Assembly (NCBI RefSeq): GCF_004785955.1
Contig: NZ_ML214300.1
Location: 1-64,000, forward strand
Source: Halostella litorea
Lineage (GTDB): Archaea > Halobacteriota > Halobacteria > Halobacteriales > Natronoarchaeaceae
DNA: 64,000 bases
Direction: 5' to 3'
The position numbers and the translations under genes are program-made. The notes beneath the pieces are model-generated. The model saw nothing but the letters and a program-made list of their open reading frames with translations, had not been told where the DNA came from and did no database searches. Numbering within the stretch: position 1 is the stretch's first letter; each line of letters opens with the position of its first letter. This document shows positions 1 through 46,778 of the stretch, one piece after another.

Positions 1-80
1 ACACGGACGTTAAGCCCGCCAGCGTTCCGGCAAGTACTGGAGTGCGCGAGCCTCTGGGACCACCGGATCGCCGCCTCCCA
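1..80 (+). rRNA. rrf: 5S ribosomal RNA, 3' part
   Basis: The first 80 bases match the 3' two thirds of haloarchaeal 5S rRNA: a loop with AAGCCCGCCAGCGTTCCGG, then GTACTGGAGTGCGCGAGCC, then a 3' strand ending GCCGCC that would pair with the missing 5' end. The 5' part lies outside the window. A strong terminator follows 11 nt later, so this is probably the last gene of a 16S-23S-5S operon. The exact 3' end is uncertain by a few bases. Confidence 0.93.
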
Positions 81-90
81 CTCATACTAC

Positions 91-122
91 AGCCCAGTCG
101 GCACCCGCCGACTGGGCTTTTC
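91..122 (+). terminator. rho-independent-like terminator after 5S rRNA
   Basis: A perfect 12-bp inverted repeat (arms 91-102 and 107-118, loop ACCC) is followed by a short T-run. It sits immediately downstream of the 5S gene and has the shape of a hairpin-plus-oligo-T terminator for the rRNA operon. No tRNA-Cys, often found here in haloarchaeal rrn operons, is visible between the 5S gene and this hairpin. Confidence 0.85.
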
Positions 123-242
123 TCATACCATCCACGGAGCCATCAGGCTCCGCCACACCTCTCCCGTCGAGTAGCACGCTCGATGAGACCATCACCGCCC
201 AGTACCGACAGCGGACCGCGACCGCCGTCCGCGCGCCGCGTC

Positions 243-249
243 ATTAATA
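243..249 (+). promoter_or_regulatory. TATA-like box of dinB
   Basis: ATTAATA lies 24 nt before the dinB start codon in an otherwise GC-rich gap. That is the spacing expected when transcription starts at or next to the ATG (leaderless mRNA). Confidence 0.5.
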
Positions 250-273
250 CCGCTTGGCTACCAACCGCCGGCC

Positions 274-1578
274 ATGGACGGGCCGCAGCTCCCCGGCGTC
301 CCCGACGCGGAGGACCGCGACCGGATCGTCCTCCACGTCGACATGGACTGCTTCTACGCGGCCTGCGAACGGCTCCGGGAGCCACGGCTCCGCGGCGAAC
401 CGCTCGTCGTGGGGATGGGGTACGAACCGGACGACGACATCGGCGCGGTTGCGACCGCGAGCTACGAGGCCCGAGCGTACGGCGTCGAGAGCGCGCAGGC
501 CATCTCGACGGCGCTGGAGCGGCTGCCCCGGAAAGTCGACGCCCGGGAGGACCCGGACCTCGACCCGGCCGACGCGGGGTACTACCGGCCGGTGGACATG
601 GACTTCTACGAGTCGATCAGCGAGAACGTGAAGGCGATCCTCCACGACTGCGCGGACGTGGTCCGCGAGGTGAGCGTCGACGAGGCGTACCTCGACGTGA
701 CCGACCGCACCGCCTGGGAGGTGGCGGAGGGGTTCGCGCGCCACGTGAAAAACCGGATCGAGCGTGAGGTGGGCGTCGTCGCCAGCGTCGGCGTCGCGCC
801 GAACATGAGCACCGCGAAGGTCGCCAGCGACCGGGACAAGCCGGACGGCCTCGTCGTGGTCGACCCCGACGAGGTGGCGGACTTCCTCGCACCGCTGGAC
901 GTGGAGGAGATCCACGGCGTCGGCCCGGTGACCGCGCGGACACTTCGCGAGATGGGGCTGGAGACGGCGGGCGACGTCGCCGACGCGGACCCGCGGGACC
1001 TGGAAGCCGCGTTCGACAGCCGCGGCCGCGAACTGTACGACCGCGCGAGGGGGGCCGACGACCGCGAGGTGACGCCGACCGGTCGGCCGAAGAGCCTCTC
1101 CCGGGAGTCGGCGTTCGCGGAGGCGGTCACGGACCCGGACCCGAAACGGGAGCAGGTACGCACGCTGGCGACGGCCGTCGCCGACCGCGCCCAGAGGGAG
1201 GGCGCACTGTATCGGACTATCGGCATCAAGGCGGTGACGCCGCCCTACGACGTGAACACGCGCGCGCGGTCGTTGCCCGGTCCCGTGGACGAGCCGGAAC
1301 TCGTCGAGGACGTTGCGCTGGACCTGCTGACGGAGTTCGCCGACGAGCCGGTCCGGAAGGTCGGCGTGCGCGTCTCGAACCTCAGCTTCTCGGCGGGCGA
1401 CCAGGCGAGCCTCGACGGCTGGGGTGGCGGTACGGACGACGGCGCGTCGAGCGGCGACGACGCCGCAGCGGATCGGACTGGAACCGAGAGCGCGGTCGAC
1501 GAGTCGGCTGATCGCCCGGCCCTCTCCGGACAGACGACGCTGAGCGACTTCCGCGGCCGACAGGATTACTTGCATTGA
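274..1578 (+). CDS. dinB: DNA polymerase Y family (Pol IV, translesion)
   Basis: 434-aa Y-family DNA polymerase that copies past damaged template bases. The palm begins with HVDMDCFYA (catalytic Asp23) and carries the second acidic motif SVDEAYLD (Asp136, Glu137). A helix-hairpin-helix region (HGVGPVTARTL) and the little-finger domain follow. The C-terminus is an acidic linker ending in QTTLSDF (residues 420-426), which fits a PCNA-interacting peptide, so clamp binding is inferred. The start is the ATG 24 nt after a TATA-like box. It follows the rRNA operon as a separate unit. Length and motif order are normal for the family. Confidence 0.95.
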   Translation: MDGPQLPGVPDAEDRDRIVLHVDMDCFYAACERLREPRLRGEPLVVGMGYEPDDDIGAVATASYEARAYGVESAQAISTALERLPRKVDAREDPDLDPADAGYYRPVDMDFYESISENVKAILHDCADVVREVSVDEAYLDVTDRTAWEVAEGFARHVKNRIEREVGVVASVGVAPNMSTAKVASDRDKPDGLVVVDPDEVADFLAPLDVEEIHGVGPVTARTLREMGLETAGDVADADPRDLEAAFDSRGRELYDRARGADDREVTPTGRPKSLSRESAFAEAVTDPDPKREQVRTLATAVADRAQREGALYRTIGIKAVTPPYDVNTRARSLPGPVDEPELVEDVALDLLTEFADEPVRKVGVRVSNLSFSAGDQASLDGWGGGTDDGASSGDDAAADRTGTESAVDESADRPALSGQTTLSDFRGRQDYLH

Positions 1579-1579
1579 A

Positions 1580-1587
1580 CCTATAAA
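1580..1587 (+). promoter_or_regulatory. TATA-like box of the J-domain gene
   Basis: CTATAAAC lies just after the dinB stop and about 33 nt before the ATG at 1621. This suggests the J-domain gene has its own promoter despite the short 42-nt gap. Confidence 0.4.
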
Positions 1588-1620
1588 CCCTGGGTACGTT
1601 TCGGGAACCGAACACTCTCT

Positions 1621-2793
1621 ATGACGCACGACTTCTACGATCTCCTCGGAGTCCCCGCCGACGCCTCCCAGGACGAGATCAAGGAAGCGTTCAGGAAGAA
1701 GGTACAGGAGGTACACCCCGACCTGAACGACGACCCCCGGGCACCGGCCCAGTTCACCGCTCTGAAGAAGGGGTACGACACGCTGAAAGACCCCGTCGAG
1801 CGGAAGGCGTACGACAGGCTCGGACACAAGGACTACGTCGCGAAGCGGCTGGAGGGGCTGCCCGACCCCGACCAGTGGAAGCCGGCCGACGCGGACGGCG
1901 ACGCGGGCGGCGGATCGGGGACCACGAGCGGGTCGGCTTCGACGGGAGCCACGACCGCGGGACGGAGCGGCGGGTCGACCACGAGCACGACGGCCGGGAG
2001 CGCCGGCAAAACGGCCTCCTCCGGCGGCTCGGCGTCGGCGGACACGTCGACGAGTACGGGCACCGGGTCGGGGTCGTCGTCGCGGACGAACACCCGCACG
2101 CGGACGAGCACCGGGAGCGCGACCGCAGGCGGGACGCGAACCGGGACGACGAGTTCGGGGGGGACGAACGCGGGCGCGTCGACGAGCACCAGCAAGGCGG
2201 CGGCCGGGACGAGCGACGCGTCGTCGGAGGCGTCCTCGACGAGCACCCCCACGAGCGATACGACGTCTGGTCCCGGACTGGTCGAGCGCCTCCGGTCGCT
2301 CAACTACGGCTGGCCGGTCGTGTTCCTCACGTCGCTCGTCTACCTCGCGGGTGTGGGGCTGTACGCCCGCGGGCACGTCGGGGCGCTCCGGGAGTTCGCG
2401 GCGGCGGTGCGCGCGGCGGGGACGGACACGACGGCGCTCCGCGAAGCCCTGGTCGCCGGCGAGTACGGGCTGACGTCGGTGTTCGAGTACGTCCGGACGA
2501 CGGCCGTCTCCGACGGGCTCCCGGGTGCCGGACTGCTCGTCGCCCTCGGAGCCGTCGCGCTGCCGGCGGTGTTTTTCGTCGTGGTCAGGACGACGCGGCG
2601 GTCGTTCGCCTGGCAGCCCACCTACCTCTACGTCGTGGCGGTCCTCACGCCGCTTTTCGGCCTCGGCGCGGGCGCGGCGGAGTACGACTGGCCGGTCGTG
2701 ACCGTCGTCGCGTTCGGCGTCCTGCCGCTGCTGGCGGTCGTCGCCCTCCCGTTCAACGCCTTCGTCACGCCGCGGCTGAAGCGTCTGTTCTGA
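1621..2793 (+). CDS. membrane-anchored J-domain protein
   Basis: 390 aa. Residues 1-65 form a DnaJ-type J domain (MTHDFYDLLGVP) with the HPD tripeptide at 32-34 that stimulates Hsp70 ATPase. There is no Gly/Phe region, zinc finger or C-terminal substrate domain, so this is not full DnaJ. Residues about 85-218 are a low-complexity Ser/Thr/Gly/Ala linker. The C-terminal 170 residues contain about four hydrophobic segments. It may recruit DnaK to the membrane (inference). Its 3' end overlaps the convergent glycosyltransferase gene by 29 nt. The linker is built from near-repeated ACGAGC/GGGACG-type codons, suggesting slippage-prone DNA. Confidence 0.85.
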   Translation: MTHDFYDLLGVPADASQDEIKEAFRKKVQEVHPDLNDDPRAPAQFTALKKGYDTLKDPVERKAYDRLGHKDYVAKRLEGLPDPDQWKPADADGDAGGGSGTTSGSASTGATTAGRSGGSTTSTTAGSAGKTASSGGSASADTSTSTGTGSGSSSRTNTRTRTSTGSATAGGTRTGTTSSGGTNAGASTSTSKAAAGTSDASSEASSTSTPTSDTTSGPGLVERLRSLNYGWPVVFLTSLVYLAGVGLYARGHVGALREFAAAVRAAGTDTTALREALVAGEYGLTSVFEYVRTTAVSDGLPGAGLLVALGAVALPAVFFVVVRTTRRSFAWQPTYLYVVAVLTPLFGLGAGAAEYDWPVVTVVAFGVLPLLAVVALPFNAFVTPRLKRLF

Positions 2794-4018
2794 CGGCCGC
2801 GCCGCCCTGCCGTCGGCGGTAGACTACACACGCCGCGAGCATCAGCAACATCCCGTACTCGATCGGCGAGGCGAACGTGAAAAGCGGGCGGACGACCGCG
2901 AACAGCGCCGGCCGGACGGCCTCGGGGAGCAGTCGGACGACGTTCTCGGCGTTGTTGAGCGTAAAGGAGAGGTTCGCCACGAACGCGCCCGCGACGAACG
3001 CCGTCCGCGAGGGGCGGTCGTCCATGAGGTACAGCAGCGCGACGAGCGGGAAGGCCAGATACACGTAGTAGATGAAGTAGGAGGGCAGCGCGAGCAGCGT
3101 CGCCGTCACGGTGCCGTGGATGGCGACGAGGCGGTCGACGCGGTCGTCGACCCCGGTGTAGAGGTAGCACACGACCGGCGCGAGCAGGAGGAAGGGGAGC
3201 GCGACGAGCAGCGTCGGGTCCATCTCGGGGAAGGCGACCGACAGCGGCCGGCGGAGCGTGATGTACGCGCTGTTGGGGTCCAGTCCGCCCTGGAACAGCT
3301 CCGCGCGGTTCCGCGGGAACAGCGCCTCCTCTAGATAGGTCCGCGTCGTCCCGACGCCGAAGACGGGCACGCCGAGCGCGAGCAGGCCGAGGCCGGTCCC
3401 CACGGCCGCGCCGACGGCGCGCCACGCGCGGCGGCGGAGGAACCAGACGCCGAACAGCGCCGGGAACACCTTGATGAACGCGGCCAGCGCGAACGCGACC
3501 CCGGACAGTTCCTCGCGGCCGCGGTCCAGCGCGACGAAGCCGGCGACGGTGAGCGCGGCCAGTTGCACGTTGACGTTGCCGTAGAACACCGACGGGACGG
3601 AGTGGATCGAGAGGACGAGGAAGCCGACGATCAGGCCGTAGTCGAGGCGGGAGAGCGAGCGCCCGGCGCGCTCGACGTAGCGCCCGAGCAGGACGCCGCC
3701 GGCCGCGCCGAACGCGGCCGCGCCGGCCGTGTGGACGAGGAAGCCGGGGACCCAGCTTCCGGGGACCGCGGCGGGGTAGAACGCGAGGACGGACAGCGGC
3801 GGGTAGAGGTATCTGTACGCCGGCCAGTCCGGCGGCGTCGCGGCGTAGAAGTCGCCGCCGGCCATCGCGGTCTCGGCGGCGTAGTAGTACACCTTGAAGT
3901 TGAGCGCGAACATGTCGGCGCGCCCGAACCACATCACCGCGGCCGTGCGGAGGCCGAAGACGACGCCCGTCGCGAGGACGAACCACGCGCCGAGCGGGTA
4001 GCCGCGAAACCGGTCCAT
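2765..4018 (-). CDS. GT87/DUF2029-family membrane glycosyltransferase
   Basis: 417-aa protein with about ten hydrophobic segments. The loop after TM1 (MFALNFKVYYYAAE, then YRYLYPP) and the GNVNVQLAALTV...FIKVFPALFG block are typical of DUF2029/GT87 polyprenyl-phosphate-dependent mannosyltransferases, which act on the outer face of the membrane. The sugar and acceptor cannot be read from the sequence. It starts at an ATG and stands alone on the minus strand, convergent with and overlapping the J-domain gene. The family call is firmer than the enzymatic role. Confidence 0.75.
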   Translation of the reverse strand: MDRFRGYPLGAWFVLATGVVFGLRTAAVMWFGRADMFALNFKVYYYAAETAMAGGDFYAATPPDWPAYRYLYPPLSVLAFYPAAVPGSWVPGFLVHTAGAAAFGAAGGVLLGRYVERAGRSLSRLDYGLIVGFLVLSIHSVPSVFYGNVNVQLAALTVAGFVALDRGREELSGVAFALAAFIKVFPALFGVWFLRRRAWRAVGAAVGTGLGLLALGVPVFGVGTTRTYLEEALFPRNRAELFQGGLDPNSAYITLRRPLSVAFPEMDPTLLVALPFLLLAPVVCYLYTGVDDRVDRLVAIHGTVTATLLALPSYFIYYVYLAFPLVALLYLMDDRPSRTAFVAGAFVANLSFTLNNAENVVRLLPEAVRPALFAVVRPLFTFASPIEYGMLLMLAACVVYRRRQGGAAVRTDASAAA

Positions 4019-12784: not shown

Positions 12785-14446
12785 TCACGCCGCGTCGACC
12801 GTCCGCTCGAACTCGCCGATCCCCTCGTCGCTGCCGGCGACGAACACCTCGTCGTCGGCGCGGATCGTGGTGCGCTCGTCGGTGCGGACCTCGCCGTCGC
12901 GCACGACGCCGGCGACCATCCACCCCCTGTCCCCGACCCGGCGCGTGTCCCCGAGCGCCTCGCCCGCGAACGGCGCGGCATCGGCCCGGACCAGCCGGAT
13001 CTGGTTCGTGGGGTCCATCACGCGCTCGCCGTGGACCTCGGAGGCGACGAGCCGCGCGCACACCCGCTGGACGGAGAGGACGTAGTCCGCGCCGGCCCGG
13101 AACGCGGCCGACGCCTTCTCGGCGTCCGTCACGCGGGCCAGTATCTCCACGTCGGACGACAGCGACCGGGCCATCGCCACGGTCAAAAGCGCCGTCGCGT
13201 CGTCGTCGACCGTGACGACGAGCGCGGAGGCGTCGTCGATGCCGGCCTCGCGGAGCGTCTCGGGTTCGGTCACGTCCCCGACGACGTCCGGGTCGGCCGC
13301 CGCGTCGTCGTCGATGGTCGTCGCCGCGACGTCGTCGGGGAAGGCGTTCACCGCCGCCATCCCGCCCTCGCCGAAGCCCGCGACCAGAACCCGGGAATGT
13401 GCGGCGGTCCTGCTGACGCGGACGTCGCTCAGGTCGCTGGCCACGTCGTCGATCTCGCCCGCCGGGCCGGCGACGACCAGCACCGTGTTGGGCGTGAGCC
13501 GCTCGTCGGGCGACGGCGGCAGCCGCAACTCGCCGTCGAACCAGCCGGCGACGAGCGTCAGGTTCGGGTGACTCGCGAGCGGCGACTCGCGCACCGTGAC
13601 GCCGTGCAGCGGGCTGTCCCGCCGGACGAGTATCTCCCGGATCACCACGCCGCCGTCGTCGTCGACCGGCGCGTCGACCGCGACCGGCGTCGCCGCCTTC
13701 TCGGCGAGCCGTTGGCCGATGAGCGCGTTCGGCGCGACCCCTCTATCCACGCCGACCTCCGTCAGCGCCGCCTTCCGGCGGGTCGATTCGAGGAAGCTGA
13801 CGACCCGCAGGTCCTCGTTTTCCTCCAGGGCCGTCAGGACGATGCTCGCGGTGCGGTCGCCCGCGTCGGTGATGAGCACGTCGGCCCGGCCGACGGTGGC
13901 GCGGCGGAGGTCGTCGCGGTCCTCCGGGTCGCCGTTTATCGCCTGGTAGCCGTCGTCCGAGAGCCGCTTTGCCTCGTCCTCCTCGGAGTCGACGAGCACG
14001 TAGTCCACGTCCAGTTCCTCTAGCTCGTCGAGCAGTAGCTCCGCGTTCCGCTGGTACTCGGCGACGACGACGTGGTCGTCCTTCGTCGAGAGCCGGTCGT
14101 CCAGGTTGAGCGGCGTTCGCTCGAACAGCGGGATGACGAGAACCCGGAGCGTGACGAAGCCGATCACCACGCCGGTCACCTGGATCGTCACCATCAACAC
14201 GTTCATCGCCGGGGTGTCCCACGGCGCGTCCGCGCCGAAGCCGGTCGTCGTCATCGTCTCGACGACCGTCTGGAACGACCGGAAGATCGACTGGGGGCGG
14301 CCCTCCAGCGCCGCCATCCCCCAGTTGTAGACCACCGTGAGCAGGAGGACGACGGTCCCCAGCCCGACCGCGTACACCACCAGGAGCCGCTGGCGCTGCG
14401 TCAGGTCCTTCGGTCGGAACCCCTCGATGTCTCGAAGTTCTCGCAT
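12785..14446 (-). CDS. K+ channel-like protein with tandem TrkA/RCK domains
   Basis: 553 aa. Two membrane helices flank a pore loop whose filter reads TTTGFG (residues 66-71) in place of the usual TVGYG. Next comes a first RCK-like unit whose nucleotide loop is degenerate (VVVAEYQRNAELL, no GxGxxG), then a TrkA-C domain. A second RCK unit has an intact loop (VLVAGFGEGGMAAV), followed by a second TrkA-C. This is the plan of a ligand-gated potassium channel subunit in the cytoplasmic membrane. Ion selectivity is inferred. Start ATG; single gene. Confidence 0.85.
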   Translation of the reverse strand: MRELRDIEGFRPKDLTQRQRLLVVYAVGLGTVVLLLTVVYNWGMAALEGRPQSIFRSFQTVVETMTTTGFGADAPWDTPAMNVLMVTIQVTGVVIGFVTLRVLVIPLFERTPLNLDDRLSTKDDHVVVAEYQRNAELLLDELEELDVDYVLVDSEEDEAKRLSDDGYQAINGDPEDRDDLRRATVGRADVLITDAGDRTASIVLTALEENEDLRVVSFLESTRRKAALTEVGVDRGVAPNALIGQRLAEKAATPVAVDAPVDDDGGVVIREILVRRDSPLHGVTVRESPLASHPNLTLVAGWFDGELRLPPSPDERLTPNTVLVVAGPAGEIDDVASDLSDVRVSRTAAHSRVLVAGFGEGGMAAVNAFPDDVAATTIDDDAAADPDVVGDVTEPETLREAGIDDASALVVTVDDDATALLTVAMARSLSSDVEILARVTDAEKASAAFRAGADYVLSVQRVCARLVASEVHGERVMDPTNQIRLVRADAAPFAGEALGDTRRVGDRGWMVAGVVRDGEVRTDERTTIRADDEVFVAGSDEGIGEFERTVDAA

Positions 14447-42150: not shown

Positions 42151-43323
42151 TCAGCGGCGACGCGCGAGCGCCAGCGCCGCCACCAGCGCGGCGACCGCGG
42201 CCCCGACGCCCATGCCGGGCTGGCCGCCGCCGTCGCTGGTCTCGGTGTCGTCGCTGCCGCCGTCGTCGCCCATACCGCCGTTATCCGTCGTCGTGGTCGT
42301 CCCGTCCGTTCCGGCGTCCCCGCGGATGCTGGCGTTGGCCTCGGCGTACGCCTCGGGGTGGATCGACTGTGCGACCTGGCTGATCGGGATCACGACCCGC
42401 GGCGCGGGCTGGTTGAGGTAGTTGGCGTTCACCTCGATGATCTGGTCCTCCTGGACCGCGGTGGTCGCGGAGAGCGCCTCGGTCTGCTGGAGGCCGTACT
42501 GCTCCTGGACCAGTATCCACTCGGGGTTCTGCGCGACGACAACCTCGTTCGACAGGGTGTCGTAGCCGGTGACGTTGGCCGACGCGGCGATGTTCTCGCC
42601 GCCGCCGAGTTCGATGATCCGGTTGATGAACGTCCCCTCGCCGGCGGTGAAGCCGCCGGTCATCTGGTAGTACACCGTGCCGGGCTCCTCGCCGCTGACG
42701 GCCTCCTGCACGACCCGGATGTCGGTCCGCATCTCGCCGACGGCCTCGGCCGCGCCCTCACAGTTACCAGTGAGGCGACCCGTGGTGTTTGTCTTCTCGT
42801 AGATGTCCCCTATCGACTCCGCCATGCGGAACTCGTACACCGGCATCCCGACCTCGCGGAGCTGGCTGATCGTCGAGTCGGGCGTGCTGTTCGGCGCGAG
42901 CACGAGGTCGGCGTCCGTGGCGACGGCCGTCTCGATGCTCACGGAGACGCCGTCGTCCTGACTGATGTCGGTCTTGCCCTCGCGCCCGTCGAGGTAGTCG
43001 GTGTACTGGCTGATCGGCAGCCCGGTCACCTGCCCCTGGGCTCCGATCTCCCACATCGTCTGGGCGGCGCTTGGCTGGAGCGCGACGACCGACTCCGGGC
43101 GCTCCTCCAGCGTCAGTTCGTTCCCCTTCGCGTCGGTCACCGTGACCGGGAACGAGCAGTTCTCCTGTGCGGTCGCGGACGCGGCGAACGCCCCGTCGGC
43201 GCTCGCCGGCGTCGCCGCGGCCGTGCCGGCCGCCGACGCGCCGGCGGCGGGCGCGGCGAGGGCGACGACGCTCGCCGCGACGACAAGCAGTGCAACCATC
43301 CGTCGAACTCCGTCTCGTGGCAT
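42151..43323 (-). CDS. btuF: BtuF-type ABC substrate-binding protein with PGF-CTERM-like tail
   Basis: 390 aa. Sec signal peptide (residues about 8-30, [21 protein letters not shown]), then a class III periplasmic binding fold: [45 protein letters not shown]. After residue 330 a Thr/Gly/Asp-rich spacer leads to [22 protein letters not shown], a PGF-CTERM-like sorting signal (PGM variant) for archaeosortase processing and lipid anchoring. The ligand is a corrinoid by analogy to BtuFCD operons; a siderophore or heme is possible. Divergent from btuC. Confidence 0.85.
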
Positions 43324-43347
43324 CGTCCGCCCTTCGCCGGGGAGTCA

Positions 43348-43359
43348 ATAAATATTTAT
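43348..43359. promoter_or_regulatory. symmetric TATA element shared by btuF and btuC
   Basis: ATAAATATTTAT is a perfect 12-bp palindrome placed exactly 24 nt from the btuF ATG on one side and 24 nt from the btuC ATG on the other. It is the only TATA-like sequence in the 60-nt gap. The spacing predicts leaderless transcription in both directions from one TBP site. Confidence 0.7.
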
Positions 43360-43383
43360 CTAACCCAACTCAGATTGCGTAGT

Positions 43384-44490
43384 ATGCGAACCGGCGCTCG
43401 CGCGGCCGCCTGGTCGGCCGCCCTCACCGCCCTCCTCGCGGCCGTCGTCGTCGTGAGTGCCGCCATCGGTCCGGTGACGCTCGACTACGTCGTGGTGGCG
43501 AAGGCGGCGGTCAACGCGGTCGCCGTCCCGTCGTCGCTGGACCTGACCGTCTCGTCCACGCCGCTTCCGTACCTCCCGGCGTCGGTCCCGGTGCCGGGCC
43601 TCGACGTGAGCTACGTCCGCCCGTTCTCGCTGTCGACCCCCGAGACCGCCCAGCGCATCGTCGGCCAGCTCCGCCTCCCGCGGATCGTCCTCGGTGCCGT
43701 CGTCGGCTTCGCGCTCGGCGCGGCCGGGACGGTGATGCAGGGCTTCTTCCGCAACCCGATGGCCGACCCGTCGATCATCGGCGTCTCGTCGGGGGCGGCC
43801 GTCGGCGCGGTCGCCGCCATCGCCGTCCCGGGGATGCTCCCAGTCGGCCCGCGGACGGCGGCGTTCGCCGGCGCGCTGGCGACCGCCTTCCTCGTCTACG
43901 CCATCGCCACCGAGGGCGGGCGGACGCCCGTGGCGACGTTGTTGCTCGCCGGCGTGGCGGTCCAGACGTTCCTCGGCGCGGTCATCTCGTACCTGCTCGT
44001 CATGAGCGGCCGCCAGCTCCGCGAGGCGGTGTACTGGCTGATGGGGAACCTCCGCGCGTCGACGTGGGGCGAGGTGGAGTTCGCCCTGCCGGTCGTCCTC
44101 GCCGGCTTTCTCGTCCTGCTCGCGTTCGCCCGGGACCTCAACGTCCTCCTGCTCGGGGAGACCGACGCGACCCACCTCGGCGTCGAGGTAGAGCGTACGA
44201 AGCGCCTGCTGCTCGGGCTGGCGAGCGTCGTCACCGCGGCCTCCGTCGCCGTCGTCGGGGTCGTCGGCTTCGTCGGCCTCATCGTCCCCCACATGCTGCG
44301 GCTTATCGTCGGCCCGGACCACCGCATCCTGCTCCCGACGAGCGCGCTCGCCGGGGCCTCCTTTCTCGTCGCCACGGACACGCTCGCGCGCTCCGGCCCC
44401 GCGGAGGTGCCGGTCGGCATCGTCACCGCGGCGCTGGGCGCGCCCTTCTTCCTCTTCCTGCTCCGCCGCCGGGAGGTGACCGCGCTGTGA
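43384..44490 (+). CDS. btuC: BtuC-type ABC transporter permease
   Basis: 368 aa with about ten membrane helices. [44 protein letters not shown] and [21 protein letters not shown] are the FecCD/BtuC signatures. It forms the channel of a corrinoid or siderophore importer with btuD and btuF. The unusually long first periplasmic loop (residues about 40-90) is typical of haloarchaeal members. ATG at 43384; the last bases overlap the btuD GTG (GTGA). Confidence 0.9.
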
Positions 44491-45731
44491 TCGAGGTCGA
44501 CGGCGTCTCCGTCTCGCTGGGCGGGGCCGAGGTGCTGTCCGACGTCGACGCGGCGGTCGACCGCGGCTCGTTCGTCGGGCTGGTCGGCCCGAACGGCGCG
44601 GGCAAGACGACGCTGCTCCGAACGATGAGCGGGGCACTCGCGCCCGACGCCGGCTCGGTCCGGATCGGCGGGGACGCCGTCCACGACCTGCCCTCGAAGG
44701 CGGCCAGCCGCCGGGTCGCGGTCGTCCCGCAGGAGACCCACCTCGCCTTCGAGTTCGACGTGGAGACGGTCGTCGGGATGGGCCGGCACCCCCACCGCTC
44801 GCGCTTCGGCGGCCCCTCGGAGCGCGACCGCGAGGCCGTCGCCGACGCGATGGAGCGCACCGGCGTCGCGCGGTTCGCGGACCGCTCGGTCGGCGCGGTC
44901 AGCGGCGGCGAGCGCCAGCGCGTCCTGCTGGCCCGCGCCGTCGCACAGGACGCGCCCGCGCTCCTGCTGGACGAACCGACCGCGAGCCTCGACGTGAACC
45001 ACCAGGTCGAGACGCTCGAACTCGTCGCGGACCTGGTCGCCGACGGGAAGACGGCCGTCGCGGCCATCCACGACCTCGACCTCGCGGCCCGCTACTGCGA
45101 CGAACTCGTCATGCTCTCGGACGGCGGCGTCCTCGCGTCCGGCCCGCCGGCGGAGGTGGTGTCGGAGGCCAACCTCGCCGAGGCCTTCGACGCCGACGCC
45201 GTCGTCTCGCGGGACGGCGCGACGGGGAGCCTCTCGGTCACGGCGCTGCCGGACCGCCCGTCGGCGGACGCGACCGTCCACGTCGTCGGCGGCGGGGAGA
45301 CCGGCGCGCGCGCCATCGACGCCCTCGGGGCCGCCGGCTTCGACCGGACGGCCGGGCCGCTCCCGGTCGGCGACGCGGCCGCCGAAACCGCACGCTCCCA
45401 GGGCGTCGACGCGGTGACGACGCCGCCGTTTTCCGCCGTCGACGGGGGGACCGTCGAGGCGGTCCGCGAGCGCGTCGCGGCGGCCGACGTCACGGTCGTC
45501 GCCGACCTCGCTGTCACGCCCGGCAACCGCGACGTGCTGGACGCCGTCGCGGAGGCCGACCGGCCGGTCGTCGTGGAGACCCGGCCCTTCGCGGAGCGCA
45601 ACCGGGCCGGCGACCGCGCCCGGGAGCGCTACGAGCGCCTGCGGCGGCGCGCGACGGTCGTGACGGCCGACGACGTGGCCGCGGCGGCGCGGGAGCTACG
45701 CGGGACGGTGCCGGCGGAGATAGAACAGTGA
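44487..45731 (+). CDS. btuD: BtuD-type ABC transporter ATP-binding protein with C-terminal extension
   Basis: 414 aa from the GTG at 44487. ABC core: Walker [11 protein letters not shown] loop VPQETH, signature SGGERQRV, Walker [10 protein letters not shown]-loop AIHDL. After residue about 255 there is a further 160-residue domain ([41 protein letters not shown]) with a Rossmann-like glycine loop that ordinary BtuD lacks. Haloarchaeal BtuD-type proteins frequently carry such an extension; its role is unknown. Coupled to btuC by a 4-nt overlap. Confidence 0.9.
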
Positions 45732-45752: not shown

Positions 45753-46778
45753 CTACTCGTCGTGGCCGGCCTGCCGAACGGACCGCTTCGCGACGGCCGT
45801 CGCGCAGTCGGCCGTCGCCAGCAGCGTCTCGTAGACGACCGCAAGCGCCGCCGGGTCCGCGGCGTCGGCGGCCGCGTCGACGGGGTCGAGGTCCTCCCGG
45901 AACGCGTCGGTGCCCGCGAGCACCTCGTAGGCCGCGGTCCGGCTCTCCGCCGGGTCGTCGTCGAGCGCGGCGGCAACGGCGTCCTCGACGAGCCGTTCCG
46001 CCTCGCGGCTCCGCTCGGCGAGGTTCGAGCCGACGGCCTCGGCGGGCGGGTCGTCCAGCCGGGGCGTCACGGACGCGATCCGCTCCGCGTTCCCGGCGAC
46101 GCGGCGTAGCTGAGCCGCGGCGGCGTACCTGTCGAACGTCTGCCAGCGGGGGCCGTCGGACGCGGCCGGGCGGTCGTACCCGTCCAGCGAGCGCTCGAAC
46201 TGCCGGGCGACGAGCAGGAACTGGCGGGTCACGCCCGGCCCCGAGAGGACCGTCTCGGCGAGTTCGGCGTCGGCCTCGACGGCCGACCGGACCGCGTCGC
46301 GGTGCATCGAGAGCGCGACGTGCTGGAGGTTCAGGACGGTCTGGGAGAGCGACACCTTCGACGGGTTGAGCACGTTCCGGAACCCGACCTGGTCGGCGGC
46401 CCTGTCGTCGACCTCCAGCCCGGTCAGGTCCGTGCCGGCGGCGGCGAGCGCCCGCCGCTGCTCCGGGTCGAACCCGTCCTCGCCCTCCGCGACGACGCGG
46501 AACCGGTCGCTGCCCGCGGCGTACAGCTGGCGGACGGTCCGGGTGAGGTCCGTCGTCGAGAGGTCGCCGCCGGGGACGACGCGCTCGTCTCCCCCGTCCT
46601 CGCGGGGGCCGACGCGGACGACGAGCGAGCCGTCGTCGCTGGGGTAGAGGTTGACCTCCCGCCCCGTTTCGAGGCCGTGGGCGGTCGCCCACTCCTTCGG
46701 GAGCGACACGGTGAACGTCGAGTTCCCGGCGATCTGTACCTTCCGCGTCACCGGGGACTCGTCGATCGAACTGGTCAC
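45753..46778 (-). CDS. AbrB-like / PhoU-domain phosphate regulator
   Basis: 341 aa from a GTG start. Residues 9-45 form a swapped-hairpin AbrB/SpoVT-like DNA-binding domain (TRKVQIAGNSTFTVSLPKEWA). Residues about 110-330 are helical PhoU repeats (LQHVALSMHRDAVRSAVEADA; FERSLDGYDRP). Haloarchaea have this fused form at the end of pst operons, where it probably controls phosphate transport and its own operon. It lies 54 nt downstream of pstB on the same strand. DNA binding is inferred from fold similarity. Confidence 0.85.
   Translation of the reverse strand: MTSSIDESPVTRKVQIAGNSTFTVSLPKEWATAHGLETGREVNLYPSDDGSLVVRVGPREDGGDERVVPGGDLSTTDLTRTVRQLYAAGSDRFRVVAEGEDGFDPEQRRALAAAGTDLTGLEVDDRAADQVGFRNVLNPSKVSLSQTVLNLQHVALSMHRDAVRSAVEADAELAETVLSGPGVTRQFLLVARQFERSLDGYDRPAASDGPRWQTFDRYAAAAQLRRVAGNAERIASVTPRLDDPPAEAVGSNLAERSREAERLVEDAVAAALDDDPAESRTAAYEVLAGTDAFREDLDPVDAAADAADPAALAVVYETLLATADCATAVAKRSVRQAGHDE

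Follow-up and report, generated by a model that had tools for sequence, protein, structure and literature searches.

A TATA-like core shared by the divergent btuF and btuC genes of haloarchaea lies within an apparent B12-regulon operator

Bacterial promoters that fire in both directions from one common −10 element were reportedly described by Warman and others in Nature Microbiology in 2021. In promoters of this kind a pseudo-symmetric core, the sigma-70 −10 element, drives two divergent RNAs, often mRNAs, from starts 10–23 bp apart, and at basal activity the effect of mutual exclusion is small (PMC12825309). In Pyrococcus furiosus many antisense RNAs share a TATA box with a sense RNA, and in vitro one such promoter yielded two RNAs starting 49 bp apart, with a TATA-to-start spacing of 23 nt, from one near-symmetric TATA element between opposite starts, TBP binding symmetrically and TFB setting the direction; the second RNA was studied there mainly as antisense and is regarded as non-functional (PMC6640164). 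A shared archaeal TATA element is hence already known in kind, and the locus discussed here differs in that the shared element is embedded in an apparent B12-regulon operator for which there is a candidate regulator.

In bacteria, the btu and cbi genes for B12 uptake, cobalt uptake and synthesis are mostly co-ordinated by the cobalamin riboswitch. Riboswitch control acts through RNA, whereas the haloarchaeal sites described below are DNA dyads close to start codons; at gathering score, Rfam recognised no RNA family in 113,994 bases from five sources, which speaks against a cobalamin riboswitch in these sequences. Transcriptional control of haloarchaeal cobalamin genes has been described in Halobacterium salinarum, where TrmB and a second regulator act on the cob/cbi genes and each was inferred to activate them (PMC3794607). 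The TrmB motif printed there, TACT-N(7-8)-GAGTA, is found neither at 43324–43383 of our locus nor in any of 86 btuF|btuC intergenic sequences, by which TrmB was ruled out as the binder of this region; the putative operator is a different site from that of TrmB. The predicted cobalamin regulon of P. furiosus, CblR, would likewise be under a DNA-binding regulator (PMC10746257).

The locus analysed here lies in a window of 64,000 nucleotides (positions 1 to 64,000 of contig NZ_ML214300.1 of Halostella litorea), in haloarchaeal DNA with a GC content of 0.707, and comprises the following genes.

42151–43323, minus strand: btuF-like gene for a PGF-CTERM-anchored ABC substrate-binding protein, 390 aa (Pfam PF01497; TIGR04281)
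43384–44490, plus strand: btuC, vitamin B12 ABC transporter permease, 368 aa (NF007081; Pfam FecCD)
44487–45731, plus strand: btuD-like corrinoid ABC ATPase gene, overlapping the btuC end (NF007082; Pfam ABC_tran)

The btuF-like protein scores 409.9 bits against NCBIfam TIGR04281 (cut-off 325), which places the substrate-binding component of the importer at this locus, and only 67.8 bits against the bacterial BtuF model NF002894 (cut-off 234). BtuC is identified as the permease by 582 bits against NF007081 (cut-off 461). The btuD-like ATPase, with 473 bits, falls below the equivalog cut-off of NF007082 (537); orthology is still likely, since NF007082 is its best-scoring model and the gene overlaps btuC. 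Adjoining btuD on the minus strand (45753–46778) is a gene for a protein with an AbrB/MazE-type domain (PF04014), and nearby open reading frames resemble a phosphate ABC transporter. We consider it probable, on comparative sequence evidence, that the 60 bp separating the btuF and btuC genes combine a bidirectional core promoter, conserved in haloarchaea, with an operator run by a cobalamin-related regulator.

The btuF start codon begins with the A at 43323 (minus strand) and the btuC ATG at 43384, and the following elements of the core promoter were found or predicted in the 60 bp that separate them.

43348–43359, no strand assigned: 12-bp perfect palindrome ATAAATATTTAT, read from the sequence
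43350–43357, no strand assigned: shared TATA-like core AAATATTT, 26 nt from each start codon (sequence; AARTAYTT in 79 of 86 divergent loci)
about 43380, plus strand: predicted btuC transcription start, from the P. furiosus 23-nt TATA-to-start spacing
about 43327, minus strand: predicted btuF transcription start, from the same spacing

The preliminary description had placed the palindrome 24 nt from each of the two start codons, and this is exact on both sides. ATAAATATTTAT occurs once in the window, in none of 100 dinucleotide shuffles and at one place only in the whole genome of 3,745,232 bases. The transcripts of btuF and btuC are predicted to start 53 bp apart, with leaders of about 3 nt, close to the 49 bp of the P. 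furiosus promoter and unlike the shorter distance of the bacterial promoters, with TBP and TFB as the expected factors; in Haloferax volcanii, 72% of protein-coding transcripts are reported to be leaderless (PMC4983044). Among 57 divergent gene pairs in 464 kb of the same genome (the window together with 20 stretches, genes being called by a simple program and gaps limited to 400 bp), a TATA-like core 22–30 nt from the starts of both genes was present in one, btuF|btuC itself, in a count that admits alternative starts, since the caller began btuF 24 nt too far into the coding sequence. Within the limits of the gene caller, a doubly placed shared core is uncommon in this sample. As for the flanks at which TFB would make its contacts, a conserved CAA lies on one side of the core and CTA on the other, both of which are also parts of the tandem site discussed below; CGAAA, proposed in print as the haloarchaeal BRE, is not evident on either side of the core, nor is the BRE-TATA-BRE motif of the P. 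furiosus report recognised there (PMC6640164).

The geometry is conserved. We sampled 89 btuC loci (the best 80 among named genomes and nine from a search of the family), of which 86 have a divergent btuF; the exceptions are L057, L060 and L075, the last at a contig end. The 86 intergenic sequences include 82 distinct ones, and the sets of loci overlap, with at least one genome sampled twice (L002 has sequence in common with L115, and L046, being inside the G020 stretch, was not counted as independent). A strict core, AARTAYTT, is present in 79 of the 86, at 25–28 nt from the btuF start and 22–31 nt from the btuC start, with a mode of 26 nt for both genes in these 79 anchored loci. Since the core letters were fixed by the anchor, their invariance in the 79 loci is uninformative; outside the anchor, the CAA before it, the CTA after it and the AA and TT of the right-hand dyad are each retained in 77–79 of the 79. 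In Haloferax the btuF start codon is GTG.

Across the order, the strict pattern was found in 76 of 146 genomes, at 78 places (none for the reversed-pattern control), and each of the 30 places inspected adjoins btuF and/or btuC; a BtuC match is present in 134 of the 146. In an adverse test we drew 40 genomes from the 70 that fail the strict pattern and took the best-scoring window upstream of btuC: all 40 have 18–22 of the 22 defined positions, and 36 are divergent, scoring 19–22. In these genomes the core is 24–33 nt from the btuF start; its distance to the btuC start is 24–30 or 32 nt, with the one exception of L207, which has no btuC start near 26 nt, the nearest tried being at 132 nt. Exact symmetry, in contrast, was sought in relatives and is not general. 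Only 10 of 106 distinct divergent sites carry a perfect 12-bp palindrome, while 50 have one mismatch, 32 two and 14 three, and perfect symmetry was consequently ruled out as a conserved trait. This set of 106 regains six loci that fail the anchor (L038, L040, L047, L051, L058 and L071), and the seventh, L024, was entered as two single-gene copies. The conserved feature is a single TATA-like core, roughly 26 nt away from either start and contained in a 32-bp element.

Sites that serve one gene only offer a natural test of bidirectionality. In the stretches examined, btuC stands without a divergent btuF in L193 and L208 (which stop 0.6–0.9 kb upstream of btuC), L199 and L248, L223, and L057 and L060, and in L024 (Salinibaculum) the element is duplicated within a 142-bp intergenic region, so that each gene has its own copy near promoter distance. 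A second btuF of Haladaptatus carries the element, with the nearest rightward gene starting 243 nt away. Index 5 is A in 105 of the 106 distinct divergent sites and in both btuF-only sites, and is altered in six of seven distinct btuC-only sites; the alteration spans four of five btuC-only lineages, and two Haloquadratum copies retain the A. The spacer CTA behaves alike (99 of 106 divergent and 2/2 btuF-only sites, with alteration in six of the seven btuC-only sites and retention in L223). Conversely, T stands at index 10 in 102 of 106 divergent and in six of seven btuC-only sites (A in L248), and G stands there in both btuF-only sites; four divergent sites are also without this T. Taken together, these counts suggest that the positions of one side serve btuF and those of the other side btuC, and that they mostly decay when unneeded. 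The sample is small (seven distinct btuC-only sites in five lineages and two btuF-only sites), and single-side decay is comparative evidence for one shared bidirectional core promoter. The earlier proposal that one TATA element directs two leaderless transcripts thus stands in part: the shared core is borne out by the kept distances and by single-side decay, leaderless or near-leaderless transcripts are probable, and a role for perfect symmetry is not supported. As to gene order, the genome of L223 has, downstream and on the strand of btuC, an open reading frame named as btuF-like by reading; in L249 (G100, 1–3132) a btuF-like frame is downstream of btuC on the same strand, and the btuC promoter has lost the btuF-side position.

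A core promoter does not account for the element's right half. The conserved 32 bp can be read as two dyads in tandem, as follows (no strand assigned).

43346–43377: 32-bp composite element CAATAAATATTTATCTAACCCAACTCAGATTG, CAA-N6-TTK, an 8-bp spacer with CTA, and CAA-N6-TTK (pattern match)
43346–43357: left dyad CAA-N6-TTT, which coincides with the TATA core (sequence comparison)
43358–43365: 8-bp spacer with conserved CTA at 43360–43362, which may double as the btuF TFB site
43366–43377: right dyad CAA-N6-TTG, of all parts the one most clearly repeated at the family's other B12 promoters; it ends 6 nt short of the btuC ATG

We define the operator here as tandem MAA-N6-TTK dyads with an 8-bp spacer containing YTA. 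The exact pattern has its sole match in the own genome at 43346–43377, at btuF|btuC, and is present in all nine family genomes, at 22 places, with none for the control; with up to two mismatches allowed, 400 kb of own-genome background contain one site. A search with the 32-mer gave one site even at three mismatches, as if the element were specific to this gene pair, but that reading was rejected when an 18-bp part of it revealed a regulon. A matrix of this right-hand part was built from btuF|btuC sites and run against 12 cob/cbi regions, which CobS and CbiC had served to locate in the family; best scores were 11.6–24.0 in 12 of 12 regions, against at most 10.4 in 20 own-genome background stretches of 20 kb. 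The sites it picks out are those of the HAD-cbiB-cobS salvage operon (in the own genome at L275:6729), cobN|chlID, cbiX and cbtB, the names cobN and cbiB being taken from reading or from the annotation of relatives. The half-pattern CTANNNMAANNNNNNTTG alone is noisy, with seven own-genome matches against 11 for the control, and two of the seven are B12 places among those viewed.

Additionally, we took six annotated records of other genera (L317–L322), picked for a plasmid-borne cobN, in which the sites again consist of two CAA-N6-TTK dyads, 8 bp apart and 20 bp from centre to centre. With up to one mismatch the tandem pattern has 23 sites in these records, which are 8.1% intergenic; 17 of the sites are wholly intergenic, and the remaining six, at cobN|chlID, have seven of their 32 bases inside chlID. 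They include positions before cbiT, cobN|chlID, cbiX, cobA, cbtB, cobT and a second btuF, and 21 of the 23 lie within 130 nt of a start codon, 20 of them within 40 nt, the two farther from any start being L317:22418 and L319:11810. The reversed pattern gave no site in the same records at up to one mismatch and two sites at two mismatches. At 13960–14001 the annotated starts of cobN and the chlID-like gene are 34 bp apart in all six records, and the tandem site overlaps the chlID start. On the Halococcus dombrowskii plasmid (L319:7953–11431), genes for a binding protein, a permease and an ATPase, putatively BtuF-C-D by gene order, lie on one strand; the shared element is absent from this importer, and the only tandem site at one mismatch is 378 nt upstream of its first gene.

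The HAD operon of the family has one good dyad only, and four of its regions are without a tandem match even at two mismatches. In the own genome the dyad upstream of HAD-cbiB-cobS (L275:6729–6757) ends 16 nt before the predicted GTG and has a TATA-like AAATT within it. Among the own-genome regions inspected, the importer and the cob salvage operon, the latter with its one dyad, carry sites. A CbiC match is absent from the own genome, as from five of the nine family genomes; the organism is probably a scavenger of corrinoids and not a maker.

Considering that the tandem dyad recurs at B12 genes, we suggest that the TATA box of btuF|btuC sits inside one dyad of an apparent B12-regulon operator, so that the left dyad and the shared core are one stretch of DNA. 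The CAA was set aside as a BRE alone, because an identical CAA opens the dyad at other B12 genes; similarly, since CTA is present at the tandem sites of other genes, it may belong to the operator rather than to a BRE.

A candidate for the protein that binds these dyads is a MarR-like protein. In Halorussus its gene is divergent from cbiT, with a tandem site between the two, and both this protein and the own-genome copy consist of a winged helix followed by DUF7839. A match is present in 144 of the 146 genomes of the order and in 122 of 122 good ones. Within the best 30 loci the gene adjoins cbiT-cbiL in 19, the best-scoring homologues being biased because the query itself was chosen from beside cbiT, and by coordinates it lies near btuCD in G020, G034, G016, G042 and G052, which belong to two other families. 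The own copy (G000:C1:230374–231159) is about 53% identical to the query, has no B12 gene in the surrounding 4.5 kb, and is assigned a winged helix by 34.6 bits against Pfam MarR_2 (cut-off 27). An AlphaFold model of the candidate has a mean pLDDT of 90 and a pTM of 0.56. Foldseek matched it to MarR proteins, such as the MarR-like regulators HcaR and SlyA, mainly in the N-terminal winged-helix part, and among the 50 matches listed none from the PDB was full-length (TM-score by query length ≤0.31). In a tree of the regulator, branches are long and deep forks weak, and we accordingly make no claim of orthology between cbiT-linked and other copies. We regard the DUF7839 protein as a lead with good linkage, its identification as the regulator being drawn from the position of its gene; that it could equal the second, TrmB-dependent regulator of H. 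salinarum is speculation.

The mechanism that we propose for btuF|btuC runs as follows. TBP would read the one near-symmetric TATA-like core in both orientations and TFB would pick the direction through flanking contacts, giving two divergent mRNAs, leaderless or nearly so. The core would double as the left CAA-N6-TTK dyad of the tandem operator, whose second dyad is offset by 20 bp on the btuC side. The tandem dyads may be bound by a winged-helix regulator, for which the near-universal DUF7839 protein of MarR type is the most likely candidate, presumably in response to a cobalamin-related signal; a dimer on the left dyad would cover the core promoter of both genes, and occupancy of the right dyad would cover the btuC melting region. 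In this way one regulator could control btuF and btuC together, setting the binding protein and the permease/ATPase jointly and along with the rest of the B12 regulon. Most likely this would be by repression, which we favour since the tandem sites lie on core promoters. Unlike the P. furiosus promoter (PMC6640164), this one is predicted to yield, in each direction, an mRNA for the same transporter; relatives throughout the order share its arrangement, and its core falls within a site that recurs at B12 genes.

The preliminary description had further supposed that only one of the two genes is fired at a time and that such mutual exclusion by itself keeps the parts of the importer balanced. It is true that a single TATA-like core, equidistant from both starts, is conserved, and that opposing polymerases of E. 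coli cannot co-occupy a bidirectional promoter; nevertheless, in the same study, five of five E. coli promoters tested were too weak at basal activity for competition between polymerases, and weakening one direction barely affected the other (PMC12825309). Moreover, exclusion alone would fix no ratio, the palindrome is imperfect in 96 of the 106 distinct sites, and a conserved extra dyad would not be needed. The supposition is left without support and we consider it unlikely. Since the element is a full copy of the tandem site found at other B12 genes, the two genes could be co-ordinated more simply, and their joint control by a single operator is the likelier arrangement. The opposite reading, that the element is an operator only, with separate weak promoters elsewhere and a TATA look that is a by-product of the CAA-N6-TTK dyad, draws on the fact that tandem dyads at many B12 genes explain the outer CAA and TTK without TBP, and on a few left dyads at other B12 genes that are AT-rich too. 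Left dyads there, however, are often not AT-rich in the middle (e.g. CAACCTGAGTTG), whereas the btuF|btuC left dyad is nearly always CAA-YAARTA-YTT; the spacing to either start codon holds near 26 nt and single sides mostly decay along with the gene on that side, all of which makes an operator-only element unlikely.

A bidirectional promoter with a B12-regulon site may also be combined with a dyad-binding protein that activates, or with one that is not the DUF7839 protein, and to this we give a substantial probability, somewhat short of even. TrmB and the TrmB-dependent second regulator of H. salinarum are both inferred to activate cob/cbi genes (PMC3794607), which speaks against simple repression, though the TrmB motif is absent here; seen from btuF, the right dyad comes immediately upstream of the core promoter, a position that activators may use as well; and it is through gene linkage only that the DUF7839 protein is singled out. 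Against another protein stand that same linkage, to cbiT and, in two other families, to btuCD, and the near-universal occurrence of the gene. Against activation stand the 20 of 23 tandem sites so close to start codons that binding there would block core promoters. More broadly, haloarchaeal B12 uptake, cobalt uptake, salvage and synthesis may be under a class-wide winged-helix and DUF7839 regulator acting on tandem dyads, and at btuF|btuC one dimer would govern two divergent promoters at once, with regulator and TBP in competition for one near-symmetric site. We hold this tentatively, at just under an even chance.

Bidirectional archaeal promoters, operator design and B12 regulation, usually studied apart, come together at btuF|btuC. 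The comparison supplies a specific operator together with its target genes, points to a candidate regulator that is near-universal and brings out half-site variants that occur in nature; it makes the question why TATA symmetry persists at some divergent genes directly testable in a laboratory strain. In the literature searched, which lay largely outside the subscription journals, we found neither the tandem operator nor the DUF7839 regulator.

Finally, full second copies of the element of the btuF type are present beside btuF paralogues in two genomes, G006 and G064 (L189:3182–3213 and L190:6150–6177). The second element of G006 lies between the btuF paralogue and a putative cobalamin operon whose gene names are given by reading.
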